A DNA stretch of 39,621 nucleotides from Methanobacteriota archaeon (lineage in GTDB: Archaea > Thermoplasmatota > Thermoplasmata > RBG-16-68-12). Both the position numbers and the translations under genes were made by a program. Location of the stretch: positions 1 to 39,621 of the forward strand of contig VBML01000030.1 of the NCBI GenBank assembly GCA_005878915.1. Direction: 5' to 3'. This document shows, piece by piece, positions 162 through 38,531 of this stretch (position 1 is its first letter; the number at the start of each line of letters is the position of its first letter). A model generated the notes under the pieces. It searched no databases. It had not been told where the DNA came from and was given only the letters and a program-made list of their open reading frames with translations.

Positions 162-1295
162 TTGACTCGCATCCTGTTTCTTGCCGCCGACATTGACCTC
201 TCGCGGAACCGCGGGGACACCCTGCACGCGCGAAATCTCGCACGAGCCCTCGTGCGCGTCGGAAACGAGGTTCACATGGTCGTAGGAGCGAGCCCAAGCG
301 CGGAGCCAATCGATGGGGTGAACGTTTCGGTACGGCCGGATCGCGGGGACGCACGCATCGTACGGTTCCTCCTCAGGAAAGTCCGAGACGTCCGGCCGGA
401 CATCATCTATGAACGTCGATTTTCGCCCAAGCTGGCGTCCGCGCTTTCCGTGCTCACTGGCCTGCCCTTCGCGGTGGAAATCAACGGGATACCGGGCATG
501 GAGGCGGCGATGCAAGGCCGGCCGGGACCTAGCGGGCTTTCCGCTCGCGTGAGGCGAACCGCGCACACTCGCTTCCTGAGGAGCGCCGCCTCCATCGTGG
601 CGGTCACGCCCGGGTTGAGGAACGCTCTGGTCACCGCATACGGAGTCGACCCCTCACGGGCGTTTGTCGTTCCGAACGGAGTCGACGCGGAAATGTTCCG
701 CCCTGAAGACCGGACGGCCGCGCGAAGAGACCTGTCCCTTTCGGACGGGAAGATCGTGTGCTTCGTGGGGAACCTCGTCCGGTGGCAGGGGCTCGACCTG
801 TTCATGGCCGCGATGGAACAAACCCCTGGGTCCCTGTCTGCCGTCTTAGTAGGGGATGGCCCGGATCATGCACGACTGGTGGAGCTCGCGAGGAGCCGAG
901 GTCTCGGTCATCGCGTGCGATTCATGGGAGAAGTTCCCTACTCGACCGTCCCCCGCTATCTTGCGGCAGCCGACGCATGCGTCGCACCGTTCACCGCAGA
1001 ACGAAACCTTCCCTTGGGAGTCTCTGCGCTCAAGGTCCTCGAATATCTTGCGAGTGCCCGCCCGATTGTCGTCACAGCGATCCCCGGAGCACGGGATCTC
1101 GTGGACGAGCTTGGATGCGGGTTGGTCGTGCCGCCGGAAGATCCCGCTGCATTAGGAGAAGCCATGGTCGAAGTCGTGTCGAACGAAGCGTTTGCAGGAG
1201 CAGCGCTCCGGGCGAGCGAAATCGTCCGAGAGAGGTACTCGTGGGACCGAACCGCGCAGATGGTCACCGACATTCTCCGAAGAAGTCTGAATTAG
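162..1295 (+). CDS. GT4-family glycosyltransferase
   Basis: N-terminal Rossmann-type start, VVPNGVDAEMFRP, GDGPDHARLVELA and EYLASARPIV motifs; TTG start after TATA-like gataaata. Confidence 0.88.
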   Translation: MTRILFLAADIDLSRNRGDTLHARNLARALVRVGNEVHMVVGASPSAEPIDGVNVSVRPDRGDARIVRFLLRKVRDVRPDIIYERRFSPKLASALSVLTGLPFAVEINGIPGMEAAMQGRPGPSGLSARVRRTAHTRFLRSAASIVAVTPGLRNALVTAYGVDPSRAFVVPNGVDAEMFRPEDRTAARRDLSLSDGKIVCFVGNLVRWQGLDLFMAAMEQTPGSLSAVLVGDGPDHARLVELARSRGLGHRVRFMGEVPYSTVPRYLAAADACVAPFTAERNLPLGVSALKVLEYLASARPIVVTAIPGARDLVDELGCGLVVPPEDPAALGEAMVEVVSNEAFAGAALRASEIVRERYSWDRTAQMVTDILRRSLN

Positions 1296-1360
1296 CCCGC
1301 TGGGGTCGTCATCCCGAGCGGGATAAGGCCTATCTAGCGGTGGGGTGTTCGCGCGCCTAG

Positions 1361-2440
1361 TTGGTGGTCCCTGCGGCAACGAGACGAATCATGGTGACGG
1401 GCGCTGGGGGATCCGCCGGGATCAATTTCATCGACTCAGTACGAGTGTCGAGTCGACCGTACTACATCGTCGGCGTCGATGTGAATCGCTGGCACCTGGA
1501 GCTCCCCAAGGTCGATGCCGCCTATGTGGTACCGAAGGCCGCGGAAGAACGCTACATCCCGTCGCTCCGAAAGGTGATTCGAAAGGAGAAGATCGAGTTC
1601 GTCCACCCCCAGCCCGATGTCGAGGTAGAAACGATTTCGGAACACCGAGACGAACTCGGAGCGCGGACGTTCCTGCCGTCGAAGGAGACGGTGCGCGTCT
1701 GCCGGGACAAAATGGCCACGAACGCGAAACTCCGGTCTGGCCACGTGCCCGTCCCGGAATCGTACTTGGTCGAACGCCTGCCGGACCTGCCGAGAATTCT
1801 CGGGCGGCTCCGCAAGGGGAACAACCCCGTATGGCTGCGGGCGGTTCGCGGCGCGGGCTCGAGGGCCGCTCTCCCGGTGATGACTGCCCGGCAGGCCCGT
1901 GAATGGATCCACTATTGGCAGACGATGCGAGCCCTCGAGTCTCGCGATTTCATGATGGCCGAATTCCTCCCGGGCCGGGAGTACGCATTCCAGAGCCTTT
2001 GGCGGGACGGCGACTTGATCACGTCCGCGTGCCGGATGCGGCTCGAGTACCTCATGGGCAATCTCTCGGTCAGCGGTCAATCCTCGTCCCCCTCGGTCGC
2101 GGTCACCGTTCGCAGTGACGCGGTCAACGAGGTGGCCACGAGGGCGGTCCAGACTATCGATCCGCACGCGACGGGCGTGTTCTGTCTCGACATCAAGGAG
2201 GACTCTAGCGGCACACCGTGCATTACGGAAATCAATGCGGGCCGATTCTTCACAACGAGCAACTTCTTCGCGCGGCTTGGCGCGAACATGCCGGATGACC
2301 TGATCCGCCTCGCGTTCGGCGAGAAGCTCCCCAGACGGCGGAGGTACGATGCCGTCCCGCCGAACTGCTACTGGATCCGCTTGATGGACGCAGGGCCCGT
2401 CCTGGTGCGTGGTGAGCGGTGGCGGGGTTCAGAAGCCTGA
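1361..2440 (+). CDS. ATP-grasp protein, carbamoyl-phosphate-synthase-like
   Basis: MVTGAGGSAGINFIDSVR N-terminus, EFLPGREYAFQSLWRDG and FCLDIKED...ITEINAGRFFTT ATP-grasp signatures. Confidence 0.82.
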   Translation: MVVPAATRRIMVTGAGGSAGINFIDSVRVSSRPYYIVGVDVNRWHLELPKVDAAYVVPKAAEERYIPSLRKVIRKEKIEFVHPQPDVEVETISEHRDELGARTFLPSKETVRVCRDKMATNAKLRSGHVPVPESYLVERLPDLPRILGRLRKGNNPVWLRAVRGAGSRAALPVMTARQAREWIHYWQTMRALESRDFMMAEFLPGREYAFQSLWRDGDLITSACRMRLEYLMGNLSVSGQSSSPSVAVTVRSDAVNEVATRAVQTIDPHATGVFCLDIKEDSSGTPCITEINAGRFFTTSNFFARLGANMPDDLIRLAFGEKLPRRRRYDAVPPNCYWIRLMDAGPVLVRGERWRGSEA

Positions 2441-3063
2441 AAGGGTTGCTCGTCGACTTCGATGGGACCCTCGTCGACCTCCCCACGGACTACGAGGGGA
2501 TGAGGCGGGACCTGCGCGCCGCGTTTGGCGGGTATGGACGGGATCGGCCCTTCCGGCCGCTGCTGGACTCGTTGGCGCAGATCCGTGGCGAACTTCTCCG
2601 CGATGGGGTCCCCCCCGCCGAAGTCAGCACACGGATGTACGTCGCAGAGGGGGTCGTGACGAGATATGAGGAGGAAGCGGCGGGTAACGCTCGCGCCCGA
2701 GGCGGCGCGGGTGCGTTTCTCGAGGAGGTCAAGAAGCGGAGCCTGGGTGTGGCGATTGTCACGAACAACGGGCGCAGCGCCGTCGACAAAGCCTTTCAGT
2801 TGCTCCAGCTCCCGCGCCCGGACTTCATCGTCGCCCGCGGGGAAGCCGAGAGGTTCAAGCCGATGCCCGAACCCGCAATCAAAGCACTCGCCTTGCTGCG
2901 CATGGAGCCTCGCGACGTTCTCCTCGTCGGAGACGACGAGCGTGACTACGCAATGGGCCTAGCGGCGGGAATCGAGACCGTGCTCGTCGGGGGAAGGGTG
3001 CCGGGAGCGACCCGCGTTGCGACGTTGCTGGATGTCATCGGTCTCCTGGGGCCCTCGCCATGA
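2419..3063 (+). CDS. HAD-superfamily hydrolase
   Basis: DFDGTLVD motif I, VTNNGR motif II, VLLVGDDERDYAMGLAAG motif IV; overlaps the ATP-grasp gene. Confidence 0.88.
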   Translation: MAGFRSLKGLLVDFDGTLVDLPTDYEGMRRDLRAAFGGYGRDRPFRPLLDSLAQIRGELLRDGVPPAEVSTRMYVAEGVVTRYEEEAAGNARARGGAGAFLEEVKKRSLGVAIVTNNGRSAVDKAFQLLQLPRPDFIVARGEAERFKPMPEPAIKALALLRMEPRDVLLVGDDERDYAMGLAAGIETVLVGGRVPGATRVATLLDVIGLLGPSP

Positions 3064-3812
3064 TTGCCCGGACGAACAAGGGCCTTCGGGAGTACTACGA
3101 CCAGAAGGCCCTGCGGCTGAACGAGCTCGCCGCGACGTACGAGCATCCGAACTGGTACAAGCGCTTCTTCTACCAGAGACGGTTCCGCGTCGTCTTTGAT
3201 TCCCTCGACCCGCGGTCGAATGAACGAATCCTTGATCTCGGTGCGGGTCCGGGATACTACTCGCACCGCATCGCGGAGCGCGGCGCGACTCCCGTGGCCA
3301 CGGACATCGCGAGAAACTACCTCGTTCAGATCCCGAGCTCGGTGACGCACCGCGTGTCGGCGAGCGCGGAATCCCTCCCGTTCCAGCGAGGGGCTTTCGA
3401 CAAGGTCCTCGCGACGGAGATCCTCGAACACACGCTCAACCCTGAGGCGGTGCTCTCCGAGATCGCCCGGGTGTTGAAACCTGGAGGGCGGGCCGTCATC
3501 ACATCCCCCAGCAGCACGTCGTACATGGACCGACTGTACGAGCTGAAGGCCGCGGTTCATCGATACGAATTCACCGAACACCTGCAGGAGTTTCAGCGGG
3601 CGACGTTCGTCGCCCTGCTGAGTCGCTTCTTTCGGGTCAAGCAGATGCGCTTCGCCAACTGCCTCGTCCCCTATCCGCTCGATTTTCTCGTCATGAGAAT
3701 CCCGGGGCGAATCGGGGTCCCCATGGTCACCCGAATCGAAGAGTCCCTCGCAGAGGGCCGCGGGGGCCCGCGCTTCGGCTGGACCATGGTTGGTGTCGTC
3801 GAGGGGGCTTAG
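3060..3812 (+). CDS. Class I SAM-dependent methyltransferase
   Basis: ILDLGAGPGYYSHRIAERGA motif I, VLATEILEHTLNPEAVLSEIARVLKPGGRAVIT; ATGA overlap with the HAD gene. Confidence 0.88.
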   Translation: MIARTNKGLREYYDQKALRLNELAATYEHPNWYKRFFYQRRFRVVFDSLDPRSNERILDLGAGPGYYSHRIAERGATPVATDIARNYLVQIPSSVTHRVSASAESLPFQRGAFDKVLATEILEHTLNPEAVLSEIARVLKPGGRAVITSPSSTSYMDRLYELKAAVHRYEFTEHLQEFQRATFVALLSRFFRVKQMRFANCLVPYPLDFLVMRIPGRIGVPMVTRIEESLAEGRGGPRFGWTMVGVVEGA

Positions 3813-4996
3813 GTCGCGGGTCCGCCAACGGCCGAATACACACTTCGGTACGCCTGCGCGACCTCTCGGATGGAAAACGTGTCTTCTGCGAGCTTCCGCG
3901 ATGCGCGTCCGAGGCTCTCCAGGATCGACCTCTCGCGGAGTTTGGATAGAGCCTGGAAGAAGGTCGCGGGGTCCGATGCGTCCACAATGGGGGACACATC
4001 GACCGGGAGCTCCGCCGATCGGGCCCCGTCCCCGGCGAGCCGGATCACGACGCGGCCACAGGCGAGCGCTTCGAGTGAGGTTCGCGGCGCGCCGAAGCTC
4101 CACGGGTCAAGAAACAGGTGGACAGAACCGTAGAACTCGGGCATCTGCGCGTTCGGCAAGTTCCACGATAATGTGGCCCGCGTGCGCCCGGCCTCGGCAC
4201 CGGCATTGCGAATCTGATCCTCCGTCGCGGCGAGGGCGAGGCGAAACTCCACCCAGTCGGGCGCTTCCGCGGCAAGACGCAGGACGCGGTCGGTGCCCAA
4301 CCTCTCGTAGCGCCCCGCATATCCGACGATCAGGCGGTCGGTCGAGGGCAGGGGGGCGGGGCGGAACCGTTCCGTGTCCACCGGGTTGGGGATCCACCAT
4401 GCTCGGACGCGGAGACCCCGCTCGCGCGCCAAGGCGTCGACGTTCGCTTTCCCGCTCCGTTCCACACACACGACGTTCGTCAGTCGCTCGAGGAGGAGGT
4501 CGTTTCGAATCGAGTCAAACTGCTCCCGAGATCCCCCGAACAGCGAATGGTCCGTGAAGAGGAGGGGATGTCCGTACCCGTCGAAGAAGCGAAGCCAATC
4601 TACCAATGACTGGCTCAAGCGCGACGGATGTCGGGAACGGAAGTTTGCGAAGTACCGGAACGCCGCGAAGCTGTGAAGGTGCACAAGATCCCCTTCCATG
4701 GCCGACGCGACCTCCCGCCGATACCACTCGTCGACCAACCACGAGGCAAGGGCAACGTACTTGCGCTTCCCCGGCGGGACAACCGCCGAGACAACGCGGC
4801 GGACCGCGTTCCCAGCACCAATCGTCCGGAGGGTGACGTTGCTCCCCCATTTCCTATCCCCTCCTCTCGCGTGTGCGGGAGAGATCAACGTGACTTGAAC
4901 ATCCGGCATCGCATCGATGAGCGTGGCGAGCGCAGTTTCAATCCCCCCGAGCCCGGGGGGTGCCACATCCGTCACATGGAGCACGCGCCGAACCAT
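3809..4996 (-). CDS. GT4-family glycosyltransferase
   Basis: DVAPPGLGGIETALATLIDAMP N-terminus, NPVDTERFRP, VGYAGRYERLGTDRVLRLA; stop codon overlaps the convergent methyltransferase stop. Confidence 0.83.
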   Translation of the reverse strand: MVRRVLHVTDVAPPGLGGIETALATLIDAMPDVQVTLISPAHARGGDRKWGSNVTLRTIGAGNAVRRVVSAVVPPGKRKYVALASWLVDEWYRREVASAMEGDLVHLHSFAAFRYFANFRSRHPSRLSQSLVDWLRFFDGYGHPLLFTDHSLFGGSREQFDSIRNDLLLERLTNVVCVERSGKANVDALARERGLRVRAWWIPNPVDTERFRPAPLPSTDRLIVGYAGRYERLGTDRVLRLAAEAPDWVEFRLALAATEDQIRNAGAEAGRTRATLSWNLPNAQMPEFYGSVHLFLDPWSFGAPRTSLEALACGRVVIRLAGDGARSAELPVDVSPIVDASDPATFFQALSKLRERSILESLGRASRKLAEDTFSIREVAQAYRSVYSAVGGPAT

Positions 4997-5171
4997 TTCC
5001 TGCCGGAGCGCAGGAACCCTCCGACCCTATCAACGTTCGGCTGACGTTCTCACCGGTGTCGCCGGTTCGACAAGAAGGAGCGCCGCCACCGTCGGCGTGT
5101 TCGCCGTTTTGAGCACCGTACCTATGAATTCAAATACACATGCTGCCACTAAATGACACGGGATTCGAATC

Positions 5172-5450
5172 GTGATCAAATACACGTGGCTGAAGATCCT
5201 CGACACGCTCAAGAAGCACACCTCACGGACAACGGTGGGCGACCTACGGAGGGAACTCGACGCCCGCGGGTTCCGCATGGGGGCCGACGAGTTCGCGGAC
5301 GACCTCGTGAAGCTCCGAGAGCTCGGCCTTGTCGAGTCCGATATCCTCGTCACCACAGACGCCGTTGCGGCGACATCCTTCGACGACTACTCCTCCGTGG
5401 GGATCACCGCGGCTGGGCTGCGGAAGGTCACGTCGATCGTGAAGATCTAG
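5172..5450 (+). CDS. Small predicted winged-helix-like protein, 92 aa
   Basis: GTG start; helical pattern WLKILDTLKKHTSRTTVGDLRRELDARGF...LVKLRELGLVESD reads like wHTH; antisense is gene-free. Confidence 0.55.
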   Translation: MIKYTWLKILDTLKKHTSRTTVGDLRRELDARGFRMGADEFADDLVKLRELGLVESDILVTTDAVAATSFDDYSSVGITAAGLRKVTSIVKI

Positions 5451-5459
5451 CGCGCGTAA

Positions 5460-6683
5460 TCATGGAAGAGCGGCACTGCCCCCGCCCGTTGCGCTGACCT
5501 TCATCGGCCGGTGACACCTCGCGCACTCCTCTACCGTCGCAGCGCAGGCCACGTGGTAGAACTTCCCGCACTCGCAGCGGTACCCGGGAAGGGCGGGCGT
5601 GAGCGCATCCTCGCAGATGCCGCAGAGGACCCCGCGCTTCCGGGGTGCCGGCGTTTCCGTGACCGTGACCGCTCTCGTACCCGATACCGACGGCGGCTTG
5701 ACGATAAAGCGGAAGGCGAGGCCCCAGAACAGGGCGATCCACGCGAGGAAGATCAGCCATCCCAGGTTCGAGTGAGCAACGGCGAGGTTCTGGACAGCCT
5801 CCTGCTGGGTGTCGCTATACGCCCCGACCAGGACGATCAGCACCATACGGAGGATGTTCGCGACGTAGCTCGTGACGAACCCAAGGGCGAGGAGCGCGAG
5901 GGCCCGCGGCTCGAATCGCTCGTACTCCGTGAGGACGAACGCGACGAACGCGCTCGCGAAGATACCGAAACTGTAGATTCCGGAGCACGCGGTCGTGATC
6001 ACGACCGTGATCGGCAAGCCCGCCTTCGTGACGAACGTGAGCCCGGGAGCAGTCGAGAGGGGGACCGGGTGAACGTTCGCAGACACTCCAAGGACGTTCA
6101 GGACCCAGGAGGTCTGGGGGGCGAGGGCCGTCCAGGAGTAGATGTCCACGCTCCTTTCGAAATCTTGGTAGTACAGGCGCGCGACGAGGAGCGGAACGAC
6201 GAGGACGAGAATCAGGGCTGCCATAAACATCAGGACGAAGTCCCTCTCCCGTGAAAACCGCGGGGGGACGAACGGGTACGCGAACAATGCCGCGGCGAAC
6301 AACAGGACGGACGTGTCCTCCGTGCCCAGGGAGATGCGATCGAACACCAGCTGGTTGTACGCGAGGTCGACGGCGATCCCCGCAATCGCGAACGCAGGGA
6401 ACCAGCGGACGATTTTCCCCCGTAGGGTCACGAAATTCAGGAACCTCGAGGCTAGGGTACGCGCGTCCCTCGGAGCCGGGGCTCCGGCGGACTTTCGGAA
6501 CAAGATGGCGAGGACCGCCAGACCGGCGGCGACAAGCGGAATCCCCAGGAACTCGACGTCTTGACCCTTCGGCGGGTTCAGGAGGAGATCGACTCCGGCG
6601 ACGACGAGCAGAAACGCGAAAAGGAGGGAGACCCGTGCGTGTCGTCTCAGAACGGTCTCGAAACGGGCGAGGTCGAATCGCAC
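5460..6683 (-). CDS. Archaeosortase/exosortase-family transmembrane protein with C-terminal RING-like zinc finger
   Basis: Multi-TM; catalytic-type residues in ITTACSGIYSFGIF (Cys), VANILRM (Arg), VAHSNLGW (His); C-terminal LCGICEDALTPALPGYRCECGKFYHVACAATVEECARCHRPM zinc-binding pattern. Confidence 0.8.
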   Translation of the reverse strand: MRFDLARFETVLRRHARVSLLFAFLLVVAGVDLLLNPPKGQDVEFLGIPLVAAGLAVLAILFRKSAGAPAPRDARTLASRFLNFVTLRGKIVRWFPAFAIAGIAVDLAYNQLVFDRISLGTEDTSVLLFAAALFAYPFVPPRFSRERDFVLMFMAALILVLVVPLLVARLYYQDFERSVDIYSWTALAPQTSWVLNVLGVSANVHPVPLSTAPGLTFVTKAGLPITVVITTACSGIYSFGIFASAFVAFVLTEYERFEPRALALLALGFVTSYVANILRMVLIVLVGAYSDTQQEAVQNLAVAHSNLGWLIFLAWIALFWGLAFRFIVKPPSVSGTRAVTVTETPAPRKRGVLCGICEDALTPALPGYRCECGKFYHVACAATVEECARCHRPMKVSATGGGSAALP

Positions 6684-7725: not shown

Positions 7726-8595
7726 TTGAAGGTCGTCGCGGGGTCGGCAAGCGTAGGGCTCGCTCGGGAACTTGCGAAGACCACTGGAGCAGACTTCGTT
7801 GACGTCGCGTACGAGAAGCACGCGGGCGGGTTCCCGGACGGGGAGAGGTACGTCCGGGTGATGGATGCGCTCGAGGGCGAATCCGTGTCGGTCGTCGCTT
7901 CGACCCATCCGGACCCGATGATCGTGGAGCTTCTTCTGCTCCTCGACGCGGTGCGGGATCTGCGCCCCCGCCGCGTGACCCTCGTGATTCCGTACTTCGG
8001 ATATGGCCGGCAGGACAGGCGCTTCGAATCCGGCGAAGCGGTCTCGGCGAAGGCCCTCGCGAGGCACCTCTCCGAGGGAGTGGACGAGGTCCTGACAATG
8101 GGACTGCACAGCCCCGACATCCTGAAGTTCTTCGAGGTGCCCGCGCGCGAGGTCAGCGGCATGCCCGCGGTCGGCAGGTTCCTGAAGACCCGGGAGATCG
8201 ACCTGGTGCTCGCGCCCGACAGGGGAGCCGTCCGCCACGCAAAAGAGGTCGCCTCCGCCTCCGGGAAGCCATGGGATGCGCTCGAAAAGACGCGCATCGA
8301 CTCATACACCGTGAGGTTCGAGCCGAAGCGATTGGACGTGCGTGGGCGCCGGGTCGCAATCATTGACGACGTCATCTCCACGGGCGGGACCGTCGCGCTC
8401 GCAGCGAAGGAACTCCAGGCCCAGGGGGCGAAGCACGTCCTCGTCGCCACCCTGCATGGGCTCTTCGTGGGGAACGCGTGGGACAAGCTCGCCGTCTGCG
8501 ACGAGGTCGCGAGTTCGGACACGGTTCCCTCGCGGGCGACGAAGTTCTCCGTAGCTCCTGAGCTTGCGGCGGGGATCAAGGCCGCCCGCCCATAG
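7726..8595 (+). CDS. prs: Ribose-phosphate pyrophosphokinase (PRPP synthetase)
   Basis: GFPDGERYVRV, IPYFGYGRQDRRFESGEAVSAK, VAIIDDVISTGGT PRPP-binding signature. Confidence 0.95.
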   Translation: MKVVAGSASVGLARELAKTTGADFVDVAYEKHAGGFPDGERYVRVMDALEGESVSVVASTHPDPMIVELLLLLDAVRDLRPRRVTLVIPYFGYGRQDRRFESGEAVSAKALARHLSEGVDEVLTMGLHSPDILKFFEVPAREVSGMPAVGRFLKTREIDLVLAPDRGAVRHAKEVASASGKPWDALEKTRIDSYTVRFEPKRLDVRGRRVAIIDDVISTGGTVALAAKELQAQGAKHVLVATLHGLFVGNAWDKLAVCDEVASSDTVPSRATKFSVAPELAAGIKAARP

Positions 8596-10615: not shown

Positions 10616-11260
10616 GCGCCCTCCGGGAACCGTTGGGGGCAGGCGCCCCATGGACCCTTTCGTCGCACCCGCCTTCAGCCGGAGGTACCGATCCTTGTAG
10701 AGCTTCTCGCACGACGTGCAACATAGATAATGTGTGCGTCCGTCCATCTTCCAGCGAACCGGGTCGCCCTCGATGACTCGCCCGCACTCGAAACATTGGA
10801 GGATGGCGATGAGCCCTTCGGACACCAGAGCCCGCGGCGCGTCCTTGAATCCTTTCTGGGCGACGTGATGCTCCACCGAGCGAACCCCCGGGAGTCCCCG
10901 TGCCTTCCTGACGAACTGTGAGATCAGGCCGGGCGCCGACAAGAACGCCTCTGCAATAATCCGCGATCCCTCTGTCCGGATCGTCCATCGGACCTCGTTG
11001 AGGGCGGAAAGGGCAGCCCCCACGCTATCCTCGGTTCCCCGCACACACCGCAACAGCAGGACGACGCGGGTTTGGCGGAGCCTGTTAGCGTCCACAACCG
11101 CGCGGTACGCCGTCAACACGCCGATCTGCTCCAGGTTCGCCACCCGGGCGCTCACCGTGGGTACGCTCACGCCGACTCTGCGAGCAAGTTGCCGATACGA
11201 CAGGCGAGCGTCCTCCTGCAGCGCGCGAAGAATTTCGACGTCCGTCCGGTCGAGCTTCAC
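10586..11260 (-). CDS. Lrp/AsnC-type transcriptional regulator with C-terminal TRASH metal-binding domain
   Basis: [92 protein letters not shown]-type cysteines. Confidence 0.92.
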
Positions 11261-11292
11261 GGATCAACGACGCTGCTCGGCCTCATAAGACT

Positions 11293-11304
11293 TTACAAAT
11301 GTAA
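11293..11304. promoter_or_regulatory. Inverted repeat TTACA-AA-TGTAA, candidate metal-regulator operator
   Basis: 5-bp arms with 2-nt spacer between the divergent Lrp-TRASH and copper-ATPase genes. Confidence 0.45.
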
Positions 11305-11344
11305 GGCGATTGTCGGATGGCCTCCCTCCGACTCTCGGTTCGCG

Positions 11345-13510
11345 ATGGCAGTAGACCCGGTCTGCGGGATGTACGTCGATGAGGCGACTTCCACCCTGAA
11401 TGCCATCGTCCGCGGGAGGAAGTACTACTTCTGCTCGACGACGTGCTTGGAGACGTTCCTTGAACCGGAGAAGGAGCTGAACCGGCTACGCTTCCTCGTC
11501 CTTTTCTCCTTCGGCCTCGGGATCCCCGCCTTCGTCCTCTCGCTCGCCATGGAGCTTCGGCCAGTGCCGGAGGCGTGGATGCTCCCGCTCACCTTCGCCG
11601 TCTTCCTCATGGCGACGCCCGTCCAGTTCTGGCCCGGCTGGCGATTCTACCGGGGAACGAGGGACGCGATCAAGAACCGGAGCGCGAACATGGACGTCCT
11701 GATTGCTTTGGGGACGACCGCCGCCTGGGGGTACAGCACAATCATAGTAGCCGCCTTGCTCCTCGGTGTGCCGAACGTCGACCCCTCGACCTACTACGAT
11801 ACGGCGGCAATCATCATCGCCCTCATCCTTCTTGGAAAGTACTTTGAAGAAGTCGCGAAGGGCCGAGCCTCCGAGGCCTTGCGCAAGCTGATGGACCTCC
11901 AGCCCCGGACCGCGAAGGTCCTGCGGGATGGGAAGGAAGAGGACATTCCCGTCGAGCTCGTGCAGGTCGATGACCTCGTCGTCGTCCGGCCAGGAGAGCG
12001 GATTCCCGTCGATGGTGTGATCGCGGCGGGATTCTCAGCGGTCGACGAGTCGATGATCACAGGGGAGTCGATTCCCGTGGAAAAGAACGTCGGGGACCCC
12101 GCCATCGGCGCGACGATCAACAAGTCGGGGCTGCTGACGATTCGTGCGACGAAGGTCGGGAAGGACACGGCGCTCTCGCAGATCATCCAACTCGTGGAGG
12201 CCGCTCAGGTCTCCCGCGCGCCGATCCAACGTCTGGCGGACCGGGTCGCCTCCGTGTTCGTTCCCGCCGTCATCCTTTCTGCGGTCGGCGCCGCCGCGTA
12301 TTGGTACTTCCTTGGCTTCTCGGCCCTGACGTCTGTCCTCCAGACATACCACCTCGACACCCCGATCACCGCGTCCCTGTTCGTGTTCGTCGCAGTCATC
12401 ATCATTGCGTGTCCTTGCGCCCTCGGGATTGCGACCCCGACCGCCATCATGGTCGGGACAGGAAAGGGAGCGGAAAACGGGCTCCTAATCAAGGGCGGGG
12501 AATACCTCGAGAAAGCCCAGCGTCTCACGGCGATCGTGTTCGACAAGACGGGCACCCTAACGAAGGGACGGCCCTCTGTGACGGACGTTGTTGAGGTCGG
12601 GGGGACCAGGGAGGAGCGCGTCCTCGAGCTCGCGGCCTCCGCGGAGAAGGGGTCCGAGCACCCACTCGGGGAGGCGATCGTTCGGCGGGCCCTCGCCGCC
12701 GGACACGCGCCGTCGAACCCCGTGGATTTCGAGGCCGTTCCCGGCCAAGGCGTGCGCGCGCGGGTCTCGGGATCCGCCGTCCTCCTGGGAAACCGGAGGC
12801 TCATGGCGCAAGCGGACGTTCCCACGGATCCGGTGGAGCCTATCCTCGCCCGCCTCGAGAGCGAGGGGAAGACCGCCATGCTTCTCGCCGTCGACGGGAG
12901 CCTCGCGGGGATCATCGCCGTCGCGGACACACCGAAGGAACATTCCGCGGAGGCGATCGCTTCTCTAAAGCGGATGGGGCTCGAGGTCGTCATGCTGACC
13001 GGGGACAACCGGCGGACCGCGGAGTCTGTCGCCCGCCAGCTTGGTATCGACAATGTGATCGCGGAGGTCCTCCCCGGTCAGAAGGCGGAGAAAATCCGCG
13101 AACTCCAACGCGCGGGAAAGGTCACCGCCATGGTCGGGGACGGGATCAACGATGCGCCCGCCCTCGCGCAGGCGGATGTCGGGATCGCCCTAGGGAGTGG
13201 GACGGACGTCGCGATGGAGGCGGGTGGGATCGTGCTGATTAAGGACGACCTGCGGGATGTCGTCGCTTCCATCCAGCTGAGCAAGAGCACGGTGAAGAAG
13301 ATCCGATCGAACCTGTTCTGGGCGTTCTTCTACAATGTCGCATTGATCCCCGTTGCGGCGGGCGTGCTCGCTGGGTTCGGGATTCTGCTCGACCCGATTC
13401 TCGCGGGGGCCGCGATGGGGTTCAGCTCCGTCTCTGTCGTAACGAACTCCCTCACGCTGAAGAGGTTCCGGATCTCCTCGCGGTCGTCGCGACGAGCCTC
13501 GCGGCCCTAG
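11345..13510 (+). CDS. copA: Copper-type P1B ATPase with N-terminal YHS domain
   Basis: [31 protein letters not shown] (YHS), [15 protein letters not shown] (CPC), [36 protein letters not shown]; start chosen at 11345 (track ORF from 11072). Confidence 0.95.
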
Positions 13511-33603: not shown

Positions 33604-35043
33604 TCACCCTTCGCGGCCTAGGGCACCAATGAATGCGTCGCGGAGCATGCTCCAATCCGCCTTCACGATCCCGCCGATTCCGTAGAGGCAGGCGAAGTAA
33701 ACCAGGGCCCCGGCCGGCACCCCAACGGAAAGAGGCAAGCTCAGCGCGAATAACGCGAAGACCATCAGGCCGCCCGCGAGGGAGGGGCGCACGAGGATGT
33801 TCCGGAGGTCGACGCGGACCGCGAATCGACGTGTGATAATCGTCCCGAGAATTCCGGTTACAGCCGAGCCTGTGACGAATCCGGCAGCCGCTCCGAGGGG
33901 GCCGAATCCGGTAATCAGAACGACAGAGAGCCCCACCAACGTGAGCGCCCCTGCGCACCCCACGTAGAGGTTCTCCGTCTGCCGTCCCACCACAGCCAGC
34001 ACCGCCCCGTTCCCGATGCACGCGCTGGAAACGATGACGGCCCCCATGAGGACCCTGAACGCCTCCGCGGAACCCGCGAAGGCGGGACCGAACGAGATGG
34101 TCATGATGTCTCTGGCGTAGAGCGCGGCCCCGAGGGCCACCGGCAGGCCGAGGGCAAAGAAGAACCGTTGAGTGTGCTCGAGGATCGACGCAAGGCGCTC
34201 GGGGTTCGTCGCCCGGATTCGAGCCATCGTGGGAAGGAGGACGACATGGGCGAGCGTGAGGATGGACAGAACGATCAGGAGGAGGGAGAGGCCCGCGTTG
34301 AACAACCCGGCGTCGCCCGCGCTGCGAAGGATCGTCAGGAGCACGGGCCCGGTGCTCAGGATGATTGTCGAGATCACCGCACCGAGCGCAAAGGGAACCG
34401 CTCTCCGGAGAACGCTGGACGCTGTCCTTCGGTCGAACGTGTGGGAAAACCACGTGAACTTCCGCCGGACAAGTGCGATGGACAGGGCGAGCGATAGCCC
34501 GCCACCCGCCAGGAACGTGGCAGCAATCTCAAGCAAGCCGTAGCCGAGGGCGAGAAGCGCAAATGTGACCCCGATCGTGATCCCGCGTTCGGCAAGGACC
34601 ACGAGGGCCGTATATTCCAGCCGTTCGTAGGCTCGGAAGAACGATTGAAACGTGCCCGCAAACGCCTGGAGCATCGTGGACCCCCCCAGGAGGAGGGTGA
34701 CGGCCCGCGCGAAGGGATCGCTGAGAAGAACCTGGAGGCTCACCCACAGGGCGAGGAGAGAGACCGCGACGAAGGGCAAGCGGAGGACCGCCACGACGGT
34801 CAAGTACGCTCGCGCCCGCGAGGGGTCCGCGGCGACATCTCTCGCGATCACTTCGTCGAGGCCCGCAGACACGAACAGGAGGAAGAGCGAAGGGAACGCG
34901 AACCCGAAGACAAAGATGCCGTACGAGGTTGTGCCCAGTCTCCGGGCGAGGGTGACGGAGAGAAGGAAGGTCAACACCTGCACGATGAACTGAGCACCGG
35001 TCACCGCGGCAAAGTTGCGGCCTAGGCGGACAGCTTCGCGCAT
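33604..35043 (-). CDS. Polysaccharide/oligosaccharide flippase (Wzx/MATE-like)
   Basis: N-terminal LGRNFAAVTGAQFIVQVLTFLLSVTLARRLGTTSYGIFVFGFAFPSL and about 14 hydrophobic segments. Confidence 0.9.
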   Translation of the reverse strand: MREAVRLGRNFAAVTGAQFIVQVLTFLLSVTLARRLGTTSYGIFVFGFAFPSLFLLFVSAGLDEVIARDVAADPSRARAYLTVVAVLRLPFVAVSLLALWVSLQVLLSDPFARAVTLLLGGSTMLQAFAGTFQSFFRAYERLEYTALVVLAERGITIGVTFALLALGYGLLEIAATFLAGGGLSLALSIALVRRKFTWFSHTFDRRTASSVLRRAVPFALGAVISTIILSTGPVLLTILRSAGDAGLFNAGLSLLLIVLSILTLAHVVLLPTMARIRATNPERLASILEHTQRFFFALGLPVALGAALYARDIMTISFGPAFAGSAEAFRVLMGAVIVSSACIGNGAVLAVVGRQTENLYVGCAGALTLVGLSVVLITGFGPLGAAAGFVTGSAVTGILGTIITRRFAVRVDLRNILVRPSLAGGLMVFALFALSLPLSVGVPAGALVYFACLYGIGGIVKADWSMLRDAFIGALGREG

Positions 35044-35105: not shown

Positions 35106-36710
35106 CTAGGCGGTCCGGACGTAGTTTCTCTGGAAGCAGTTCTCCCAGAACACCTTCTGGTTCGCGTAGGCGTCGATCCCCGTCAGCGCCCGGAACCGCT
35201 CATTGTATGCCATGAACAGGTCCCGCTTGATCGTGTAGCCGGTGGAATTGAGGTTCGCGGGGTACCGAGAATCCGCCCAGCCGATCGGATAATCGATGAA
35301 CCACTGGCGGGCCCAGGGAGCGCCCCGCTCGATCGAGATCGTGCGGATTAGGTCCGCAACCGCCAGGTGGTCCGAATGATCGGAACAGGTCCTGCAGTTC
35401 TGGCCCTCAAAACTCTGGCGGGTCCTATCGAAATCGGGGGCGTTGATCGTCGTCGTGGAATCGTACGGGGCGTACGTAGACACGATCGCGCTCACCGTAA
35501 GGTACAAATCCTGCCAGCTTCCGTATGTCGTCGACCCATCGACCGCCGTGAGGCTCAGGATGAGTCCGTCGCGAAGCTTCGCGAGGCTGACGAACCCAGT
35601 GGACAGCCATCCGAATCCGTCCTCATTGCCATCGGGCAGCCGCATGAAGATTGAGATGGTTTGTCCGTACGACCGTTGCCACACATTGTGGCAGACGGCG
35701 GGAGTGCTGTGGCAGAACGGCACGCTCTTTGCGATCTCCGTCTGAGGCCCGGTGACGTACTGCACGCTCGCCATCGTAGCCTCCTCCCGGGCCTGCCAAT
35801 AGCTTGGCGACATACCGGCGTCTCCCGCCGTGACGATGATGAAGAGCAGGTTGTTCCCAGCCTGGTAGTCGGACACAGAACTCGGCGACTCGAACAGCTG
35901 CCAATCGTCCTCGTGTGCGTGAACGTAGACGGACCATGCGGGGCCGCTGGGGGGAGGGGAAGGAGGGGGAGGTGGTGGGGTCTGGCCTGGGATCGCAATC
36001 GCCGTCGCCTTGCACTGACAGAGGTTGGGATAGACGTGGAGCTGTGCGTAAACGGTCTGCCCGACGAGTTCCAGCGGGAGCTGGAAGGATGCGTGGACGC
36101 TCGTGACAACGACGGGAAGGGGCGTGTTCACGCCGATGAAATATTCGTCCGCGCCTCTCGTGTTCACGTCAAAGTGGACGTGGGCATAGTACAGCTGGAA
36201 ATATCCGTCAGGGTTCACCGAGACGGCGTCGCCGTAGGCGTCGGGGTTCAGGTCGTGATCCGGGTGGGTGTCGTAGGGTTGAGGATACTGCACGGAATAG
36301 TAGACCCCGATTGTGCTGCCAGAGAGACGGAGAGTTCCGCCGGACGATGGGCCGTTGAAATCGACAAGAACGCTTACGACGAAGCACCCGCTGTCCAAGT
36401 CCTCGTAGAGTCGCACAGACCCATCCCACTGCGCATACGTGAAAACGTCACCGTCCCATCGGAACGAATTGTCGTAGCTCGCGATGAGGACCCGACCCGG
36501 TTGACATGAAATCGCCGAGGCTCGGACGGTGGTCAGGCCGGTGGAAATTGTCGCGATGGCGAGGCACATGAGAACGACCACCGCCAGCCGATGTCGTCCC
36601 CGCCCGAACGCGCGTGTGGGGGGTATCTTCGCACGGATTCCCAGTCGTCCCGACTCTTTGCCAAGCATGACCGAATTCATTGCCGGGAGGCCCTTAACCC
36701 CCATGTACAC
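35106..36710 (-). CDS. Secreted PIG-L/LmbE-like deacetylase with N-terminal beta-sandwich-like domain and proline-rich linker; true start probably near 36680 or downstream
   Basis: Hydrophobic signal-like LAVVVLMCLAIATISTGL; VHAHEDDWQLFESP, ITVTAGDAG-type VTAGDAGMSPSYWQAREEA, CSDHSDHLAVADL; PPPPPPSPPPSGP linker. Confidence 0.75.
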   Translation of the reverse strand: MYMGVKGLPAMNSVMLGKESGRLGIRAKIPPTRAFGRGRHRLAVVVLMCLAIATISTGLTTVRASAISCQPGRVLIASYDNSFRWDGDVFTYAQWDGSVRLYEDLDSGCFVVSVLVDFNGPSSGGTLRLSGSTIGVYYSVQYPQPYDTHPDHDLNPDAYGDAVSVNPDGYFQLYYAHVHFDVNTRGADEYFIGVNTPLPVVVTSVHASFQLPLELVGQTVYAQLHVYPNLCQCKATAIAIPGQTPPPPPPSPPPSGPAWSVYVHAHEDDWQLFESPSSVSDYQAGNNLLFIIVTAGDAGMSPSYWQAREEATMASVQYVTGPQTEIAKSVPFCHSTPAVCHNVWQRSYGQTISIFMRLPDGNEDGFGWLSTGFVSLAKLRDGLILSLTAVDGSTTYGSWQDLYLTVSAIVSTYAPYDSTTTINAPDFDRTRQSFEGQNCRTCSDHSDHLAVADLIRTISIERGAPWARQWFIDYPIGWADSRYPANLNSTGYTIKRDLFMAYNERFRALTGIDAYANQKVFWENCFQRNYVRTA

Positions 36711-36772
36711 AGGTGACGAGCAAAAGAGCCCCGTACTGGTTTGTAGGACCCGCGGGCCAGCCCATGGGTTGG

Positions 36773-36800
36773 TGGGAGGTCGTTAGATTCGAACCTCCCA
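36773..36800. repeat. Perfect 8-bp hairpin TGGGAGGT-cgttagattcga-ACCTCCCA; minus strand resembles a tRNA 3' end
   Basis: Seen directly; minus strand reads GGTTCGAATCTAACGACCTCCCACCA. Confidence 0.55.
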
Positions 36801-36862
36801 TTGGGCCATTGGAGGCGTCAACCCGGTCGAAGCGACGGCTGGGCTCGCGGCGGTCATCGGTC

Positions 36863-36880
36863 AGTCACTTTTTTGTGACT
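36863..36880 (-). terminator. Hairpin AGTCAC-TTTTTT-GTGACT in the intergenic region downstream of the PIG-L-like gene at 36963-38531
   Basis: 6-bp perfect inverted repeat with homopolymer loop; role as terminator is inferred. Confidence 0.35.
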
Positions 36881-36962
36881 CAGTCATCAAAAGATTACTA
36901 TCTGCTTTAAGAGGGGTCCCTCCCCGAATCAGGAGACCCACCCCGCGACACTCACGATCGGC

Positions 36963-38531
36963 TCATACCACCCTAAAGTAGTTTCTGTGGAAACAGTTCT
37001 CCCAGAACGTCGGGTTGGAGGCATAGGTGTCCGTGCCCGTAAGGTCCTTCAGGCGATTGTTGTACGCCATGAAGAGATCCCTCTTGAGCTGATAGTCCGA
37101 GGGGCTGAGGTTTTCGGGATACCGCGAATCGGCGAAGCAGATCGCGTAGTCGATAAACCAGGCGCGGCTCCAAGGCGCCCCCGGGGCAATGGTGATCGCG
37201 TAGACCAAATCGGCGACCGCGAGATGGTCCGAGTGGTCGGCGCAGCCGGTGCAGTCCCGCCCTTCAAAGCTCTGGCGGTTCCGGTCGAAATCGGGGGCGT
37301 TCACCTTGGTCGTGGAGTCGTATGGAGCGAACGTGGAAAAGGCCGCCGCCACGGTGAGGTAGAGGTCTTCCCAGCTGTTGTACGTCGTCGACTGGTCGAC
37401 CGCCGTGATGCTCAGGATCAGGCCGTCCCGCAGCTTCGCGAGGCTCTGGAACCCGGTGCCGGGGAACCCGCTCCCGTCCGTGTTTCCATCGGGAAGGCGC
37501 ATGAATAGGGTGACCGTCGTCCCGTAGTTCCACTGCGAAATGGTGTGGCACACCGAAGAGGGACTGTTGTAGCAGACCGTCGTCGCTGACGTGCTTTCGG
37601 ACGCGGCGCCGACTACGAACTTCACGCTCGCCTTGAGGGCTTCCTCCCGCGCTTGCCAAAACGACATCGAGTTCCCCGCGTCGCCCGCCGTGAGTACCAC
37701 GAAGAGCAAATGATTCCCGGCTTGGTATTCCTCTACCGATGTGGGGGTCTCAAAGAGTTGCCAGTCGTCCTCGTGGGCGTGAATGAAGACAGACCAGGAG
37801 CCAGAAGGAGGCGGGGGAGGAGGTGGAGGGGGTGGGGGCGGCGGGGGAGGACCGGAGGGGAGATCGAGGCTCGTCACCTTGCACGTACACTTGTCCGGTC
37901 CAACGTGGATCTGCGCCTTGACCGTGTTCCCGAGGAGGTCCAGGGGCAGGGTGAACGTCGCACCGACATTCGAGACGACGGCGGGAACCCCAATGCCCTT
38001 GATGGCGAATTCGTCCGCTCCCCGTCCATTGATGTCGAAGTTAGTCTTGACACGGTACGTGAGGTAGTCACCGGCGGGGGGGTTCCAAGACGTCAGGTCA
38101 CCATAAGCGTTCTGACCCTTGTTCGCATAGGACGTGAAGTCATTGGGAAATTGAATCGTGAAGGAGACAAGGGGGTCGCCGGTGAGGGCAAGGACCCCTC
38201 CCAACGGAAGACCGGTGAAGGCGACCTCGACTCCAAGAACGTTGCAGTCCTGATCCCGCTCCACGAGCAGCTGGACCGAACCCGTCCACGTGACCGTGTT
38301 CGTCGGCGTGAGCCCGCCGTCAGCCCACGTGAACGAGTTGTTTACATCGGCGTCCACCGTCCAGCCCGGTTCGCACGACGCGGCGGCGGCGCGACCGCCG
38401 AGCAGGCCGGAGCTCACCATCAGGAAGACCAGGCTCACCGCGAGAATGGAACCCACAGGCACCCTTCCCGCCCGTCGCGCGGACGTGACGGACGTCATCA
38501 ACACCGAAGATGTGGACCGAGCGTTAGGCAT
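36963..38531 (-). CDS. Secreted PIG-L/LmbE-like deacetylase, paralog, with poly-proline linker
   Basis: Signal-like VGSILAVSLVFLMVSSGLLGGRAAA; IHAHEDDWQLFETP, VLTAGDAGNSMSFWQAREEA, CADHSDHLAVADL; PPPPPPPPPPPPPP linker. Confidence 0.78.
   Translation of the reverse strand: MPNARSTSSVLMTSVTSARRAGRVPVGSILAVSLVFLMVSSGLLGGRAAAASCEPGWTVDADVNNSFTWADGGLTPTNTVTWTGSVQLLVERDQDCNVLGVEVAFTGLPLGGVLALTGDPLVSFTIQFPNDFTSYANKGQNAYGDLTSWNPPAGDYLTYRVKTNFDINGRGADEFAIKGIGVPAVVSNVGATFTLPLDLLGNTVKAQIHVGPDKCTCKVTSLDLPSGPPPPPPPPPPPPPPPSGSWSVFIHAHEDDWQLFETPTSVEEYQAGNHLLFVVLTAGDAGNSMSFWQAREEALKASVKFVVGAASESTSATTVCYNSPSSVCHTISQWNYGTTVTLFMRLPDGNTDGSGFPGTGFQSLAKLRDGLILSITAVDQSTTYNSWEDLYLTVAAAFSTFAPYDSTTKVNAPDFDRNRQSFEGRDCTGCADHSDHLAVADLVYAITIAPGAPWSRAWFIDYAICFADSRYPENLSPSDYQLKRDLFMAYNNRLKDLTGTDTYASNPTFWENCFHRNYFRVV

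Follow-up and report, generated by a model that had tools for sequence, protein, structure and literature searches.

Sorting of PEF-CTERM surface proteins by archaeosortases is an established theme, and the pairing of archaeosortase C (ArtC) with PEF-CTERM is stated in a passage of PMC5244752 that cites Haft 2012. The two partners are represented by the models TIGR03762 and TIGR03024, respectively. Archaeosortase A (ArtA, TIGR04125), which is paired with PGF-CTERM, belongs to the same superfamily and presumably shares the same chemistry. In Haloferax, ArtA was found to gather at midcell with its lipid-synthesis partners PssA and PssD (PMC7157517); the placement of an archaeosortase can therefore matter.

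RING fingers of prokaryotes have been described separately from these enzymes, and the ligand order C4HC3 was reported for them (PMC11354881). The small RING finger protein (srfp) of Caldiarchaeum, an archaeal E3, is a free-standing protein of the RING-H2 type (C3H2C3) encoded inside a Ub operon (PMC5654768).

The DNA analysed here (the window) is a stretch of 39,621 nucleotides from a soil archaeon. It encodes an archaeosortase carrying a RING-like finger at its C-terminus, and this variant, with the finger on the predicted cytosolic side, is what the locus adds to the known archaeosortase/PEF-CTERM sorting. No report of an archaeosortase fused to a zinc finger of this kind was found among titles and abstracts of the literature. 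The protein is probably an ArtC-like PEF-CTERM sorting enzyme equipped with a cytosolic zinc docking domain.

Layout of the protein and family assignment of the core

ORF calling and translation delivered the gene as a single uninterrupted reading frame of 407 amino acids with a GTG start (Table 1). The catalytic motifs named in the original prediction are present, Cys233 lying in ITTACSG, Arg279 in ANILRM and His304 in VAHSNLGW. The assignment to an archaeosortase-type core was confirmed by two models above their cutoffs, namely the NCBIfam superfamily model TIGR04178 (7.3e-12, 45.4 bits, cutoff 23) and the Pfam family Exosortase_EpsH (PF09721; 6.1e-9, 36.1 bits, cutoff 25.7), and the Cys/Arg/His triad was retained in all full-length homologs aligned. 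The NCBIfam matches span residues 104-319. ArtC (TIGR03762) was the best named NCBIfam model with 2.5e-16 and 60.3 bits, which is under its curated cutoff of 100. Judged by these scores, the core is nearest to archaeosortase C and is a divergent ArtC relative, because 60 bits stand against a cutoff of 100; it is no formal member of TIGR03762. The finger is likewise absent from that model. ArtA represents another subfamily: the window protein gave no match to TIGR04125, and the tails found in its genome are of the PEF and not of the PGF type. A second archaeosortase of the same genome, located on another contig and lacking the finger, is of the ArtA type (117 bits, cutoff 75).

Eight helices were detected by hydropathy in the 407-residue protein. 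Hydropathy and charge place Cys233 and His304 at the outer face of the membrane and residues 329 onward at the inner face, with ten Lys and Arg residues following the last helix. The membrane side of the tail was deduced from charge, and the finger is thus predicted to face the cytosol. The length of the linker differs between relatives, in which the finger is followed by a C-terminal extension of 7-23 residues. With only two usable sequences each, the structure models of the full-length protein (pLDDT 50.5) and of the isolated finger (pLDDT 58) were too weak to show a fold.

Table 1. Positions of the archaeosortase gene, its parts and other genes in the window.
Feature	Position	Strand	Basis or remark
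Complete gene of the archaeosortase C-like protein bearing the RING-like zinc finger at its C-terminus	5460..6683	-	ORF; Pfam and NCBIfam; homologs with the same fusion
Archaeosortase core with eight helices predicted in the membrane, residues 1-328	5700..6683	-	NCBIfam, hydropathy, charge pattern
Catalytic codons Cys233, Arg279, His304	5985-5987, 5847-5849, 5772-5774	-	Triad conserved in full-length homologs
Basic linker with proline, residues 329-353, predicted to be cytosolic	5625..5699	-	Alignment of relatives, topology
RING-like C4HC3 finger, residues 354-390, eight ligands	5514..5624	-	Ligand pattern in 22 genomes; Prok-RING_1, RING_2 and RING-H2 profile matches
Short C-terminal extension past the finger, residues 391-407	5463..5513	-	Translation
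Gene for a 92-aa, possibly winged-helix protein, convergent to that of the archaeosortase	5172..5450	+	Also adjoining in two genus relatives
Glycosyltransferase	3809-4996	-	Next same-strand gene to the archaeosortase
Ribose-phosphate pyrophosphokinase (PRPP synthetase)	7726..8595	+	Near the archaeosortase in 14/18 loci compared
Probable heavy-metal pump: P-type ATPase containing a YHS domain	11072-13510	+	
Polysaccharide flippase	33604-35043		
Two large proteins	35106-38531	-	Weak PIG-L deacetylase matches; adjoining the flippase

Nature, conservation and reuse of the finger

The eight ligands of the finger (C354, C357, C370, C372, H377, C380, C387 and C390) follow the spacing C-x2-C-x12-C-x-C-x4-H-x2-C-x6-C-x2-C. 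Shuffling the predicted cytosolic tail 200,000 times did not produce this pattern once. The RING-like finger of the original prediction held in its C4HC3 ligand order and in the profile matches of its family, but the window finger itself stays under every Pfam cutoff, with C1_2 at 20.0 bits and RING_2 at 18.0 bits. At E-values up to 0.1, RING_2 matched 13 of the 14 aligned fingers and Prok-RING_1 (Prokaryotic RING finger family 1, PF14446) matched 12; fingers of relatives reached the latter at 2.7e-8. The profile built from the 14 fingers matched structures of RING-H2 ligases (RNF165, Arkadia and AMFR) along the full length of the domain at about 1e-5, while its PHD matches were weaker and partial. 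A search of the PDB with the single sequence gave no match. The finger would be expected to bind zinc. It shares the C4HC3 order with PF14446, from which it differs by its sub-cutoff score and by its fusion to an archaeosortase. With srfp it has in common an archaeal RING-like zinc domain; unlike srfp, however, it shows C4HC3 ligands, is joined to a membrane enzyme and lies outside any Ub operon.

Conservation was followed by a search of 100 relatives, the best matches of which were aligned. The fusion is found in relatives: it occurs in the genus of the window, in its family, in other families of the order and in several families of the class. The strict eight-ligand finger was present on the same core in 22 genomes (23 rows, two of which belong to one contig), and one further core (L021) carries a variant of the pattern. 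Three loci were interrupted by contig ends or masked bases, and four cores have no finger. When 28 cores were arranged in a tree, L021 grouped on one side with the order's 18 sequences, and every one of these bears the finger; by parsimony the finger needs two changes across the whole tree, one being also possible. An assembly error, a frame artefact or a chance pattern was ruled out by the recurrence of the same strict fusion in 22 genomes.

ArtC homologs from other classes of the phylum (L155 and L157) carry a zinc-ribbon-like C-terminal tail at the place of the finger, pointing to more than one acquisition of a cytosolic zinc domain by ArtC homologs. Since any small zinc domain may then serve at this place, and since the finger is missing from several relatives, it could be seen as a mere stabilising or ancestral cap without a specific partner. 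This explanation is unlikely, as the eight ligands were strictly retained in 22 genomes over a long divergence and the same module sits on several different proteins of one genome.

Three proteins other than the archaeosortase carry the same finger in the window's own genome, namely a DUF835 membrane protein, a repeat protein and an ABC-transporter ATPase, the last with the finger at its extreme C-terminus. At least one such finger was detected in 54 of the 61 relative genomes (E up to 1e-5). Its presence on these proteins identifies the finger as a reused module that is not specific to sorting. This defines, for the class, a small RING-like module that recurs on several membrane-linked proteins, and its sharing among unrelated proteins fits a generic cytosolic interaction module.

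PEF-CTERM-like tails and their co-occurrence with the core

The PEF-CTERM model gave six weak matches in the window's own genome, all of them C-terminal, the best with 16.1 bits against the TIGR03024 cutoff of 23. A profile made from these six reached 13 places of the genome (E up to 10), and at 11 of them inspection showed a PEF motif, hydrophobic residues and a cluster of basic ones close to the stop codon. The extended profile (A3) likewise delivered 11 tails (E up to 0.01); its scores for own-genome tails are not independent, as the profile was built from them, in contrast to those for the tails of relatives. Two of the places retrieved (L039 and L043) represent one and the same tail. At least 11 proteins of this genome hence end in a PEF motif, a hydrophobic stretch forming one helix and an Arg/Lys cluster, the number being a lower bound because the tails were collected by profile searches and not by a full proteome scan. 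Tails of relatives fitting the PEF motif are also C-terminal. Some own-genome tails are followed by 20-50 extra residues, which would be unusual for PEF-CTERM proteins. The genes of three PEF-tailed surface proteins of this genome repeatedly adjoin genes of KaiC-like ATPases.

The window's contig was missing among the tail matches, in line with the original prediction, which saw no sorting substrate in the window. Its further statement that the targets are unknown can now be made more precise, at least 11 PEF-CTERM-like candidates being encoded in other parts of the genome.

Co-occurrence of tails (E up to 1e-3) and core was computed over relatives at least 90% complete. Tails were present in 19 of the 24 genomes that encode an ArtC-like core and in 1 of the 30 that do not (Fisher p = 4e-9, kinship ignored); the remaining five core-bearing genomes had no detected tail. 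Over all genomes of any completeness the link was weaker (37/44 with the core versus 21/55 without), as expected, because many of these are incomplete. The correlation of tails with ArtA was weaker than that with ArtC (p = 0.02). Among ArtA-negative genomes, tails were found in 11/13 with the ArtC core and in 0/27 without it, while in the ArtA-positive subset (16/20 versus 3/5) the link between ArtC and tails is not resolvable. By motif and co-occurrence each tail may be assigned to ArtC, with kinship ignored and ArtA also present. The system thus resembles ArtC/PEF-CTERM in its best named core model, its triad and the PEF-type tails that occur in the same genome and accompany the core across relatives; it differs in that the core and the tails both score under the respective cutoffs. 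PEF-type sorting, with its candidate substrates, would herewith be extended to a poorly studied archaeal class.

For an enzyme of this type, the outward-facing site of Cys233, Arg279 and His304 would cut exported proteins at the PEF motif, just before the C-terminal helix. The acceptor of the new C-terminus would most likely be a membrane lipid, as was proposed for ArtA. The PEF-CTERM-like surface proteins, whose genes lie outside the window, would serve as substrates. Since PEF tails also occur in relatives that lack the finger, the core reaction can do without it.

The finger and the basic ends of the substrates are both predicted to be cytosolic, and several own-genome substrates have long basic cytosolic ends. 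The finger might accordingly bind the Arg/Lys-rich ends and help to present the substrates to the core, a role that is rather unlikely, since finger-less members of the class from three families have similar PEF tails, the finger shows no marked acidity, and it is also present on proteins unrelated to sorting.

Genomic surroundings and possible role of the finger

In the preferred account of an ArtC-like enzyme with a docking domain, the predicted cytosolic finger would dock proteins and so place or assemble the enzyme, for instance with partners of envelope or glycan biosynthesis. Recruitment of partners had been proposed in the original prediction, and we infer it to be the most likely role. 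Beside the archaeosortase of many relatives, genes were found for a flippase, GalU, a UDP-sugar dehydrogenase or epimerase and glycosyltransferases; as a lead, these glycan-related genes count for the docking account. Through its conserved finger, predicted to be cytosolic, such an archaeosortase would give direct access to the partner that places or coordinates the enzyme.

Other neighbours were also recorded. The neighbourhood with ribose-phosphate pyrophosphokinase is probably positional and not functional. A gene for a Ras-like small GTPase directly adjoins the finger-bearing archaeosortase at three loci of one family of relatives. In 4 of 10 genomes of the window's family, Roadblock/LC7 genes are found no more than about 4 kb away from the archaeosortase, which corresponds to about two independent placements, and none lies near the archaeosortase in the window's own genome; overall, 6-10 such genes occur per genome. 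The GTPase and Roadblock/LC7 neighbours are leads and no evidence of function. A match to anti-phage defence was not obtained.

The coupling of surface-protein processing to a ubiquitin-like pathway, suggested in the original prediction, was followed through E2 homologs (PF00179). These were detected above the Pfam cutoff in 22 of the 61 relatives and in none of the 14 controls. No E2 was found, however, in the window's own genome (83% complete) or in 21 relatives of its family, and it is absent even from four fusion-bearing family genomes that are 91-98% complete. Among genomes with at least 85% completeness, E2 was present in 7 of the 17 with the fusion versus 9 of the 18 others, which gives no association (p = 0.74). 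The coupling is not borne out by these results. As the family has no E2 and the fusion shows no association with E2, the finger is independent of any E2 in the window's lineage.

It could still be argued that the finger works as a genuine RING E3 and links the processing of surface proteins to ubiquitin-like conjugation. The match to RING-like profiles, the hydrophobic residue that precedes the second Cys and the CPxC often seen at the end would agree with such a function, as would the operons for an E1-like ThiF protein, a ubiquitin-like protein (Ubl), an E2 and a JAMM peptidase in fusion-bearing relatives of the order and class, five genomes being examples. Against it stand the E2-free family of 22 genomes, the lack of a link between fusion and E2, and the position of the archaeosortase gene outside the Ubl operon in the loci examined. 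A true E3 is very unlikely on this balance. A narrower version, in which the finger would act as a membrane-bound RING E3 in relatives with the E1-Ubl-E2-JAMM operon while in the lineage of the window the E2 would later have disappeared and the finger would have been retained for docking, is to be regarded as highly improbable. If true, the E3 function would couple the sorting of surface proteins to ubiquitin-like marking. A cytosolic docking domain is preferred here to both.

In 12 of the 14 E2 sequences read out, the HPN motif is followed by a cysteine where one is expected. L143 and L144 are the exceptions; these E2-like proteins are divergent, carry an N-terminal extension and lack a cysteine at the exactly aligned active-site position. 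A protein of 1454 amino acids with the same RING-like finger at its end is encoded beside these two genes. Many E2 genes lie in the E1-Ubl-E2-JAMM operon; it was seen at ten loci in relatives of the order and class, with a ubiquitin-like protein of 80 amino acids, and in several relatives it is near ribosomal or informational genes. A free RING E3 was not seen in these operons. In one relative, E1, E2 and JAMM genes (positions 972-6188 of the locus L154, genome G060) adjoin the gene of a 694-aa protein with weak matches to RING_2 and RWD, a possible E3.
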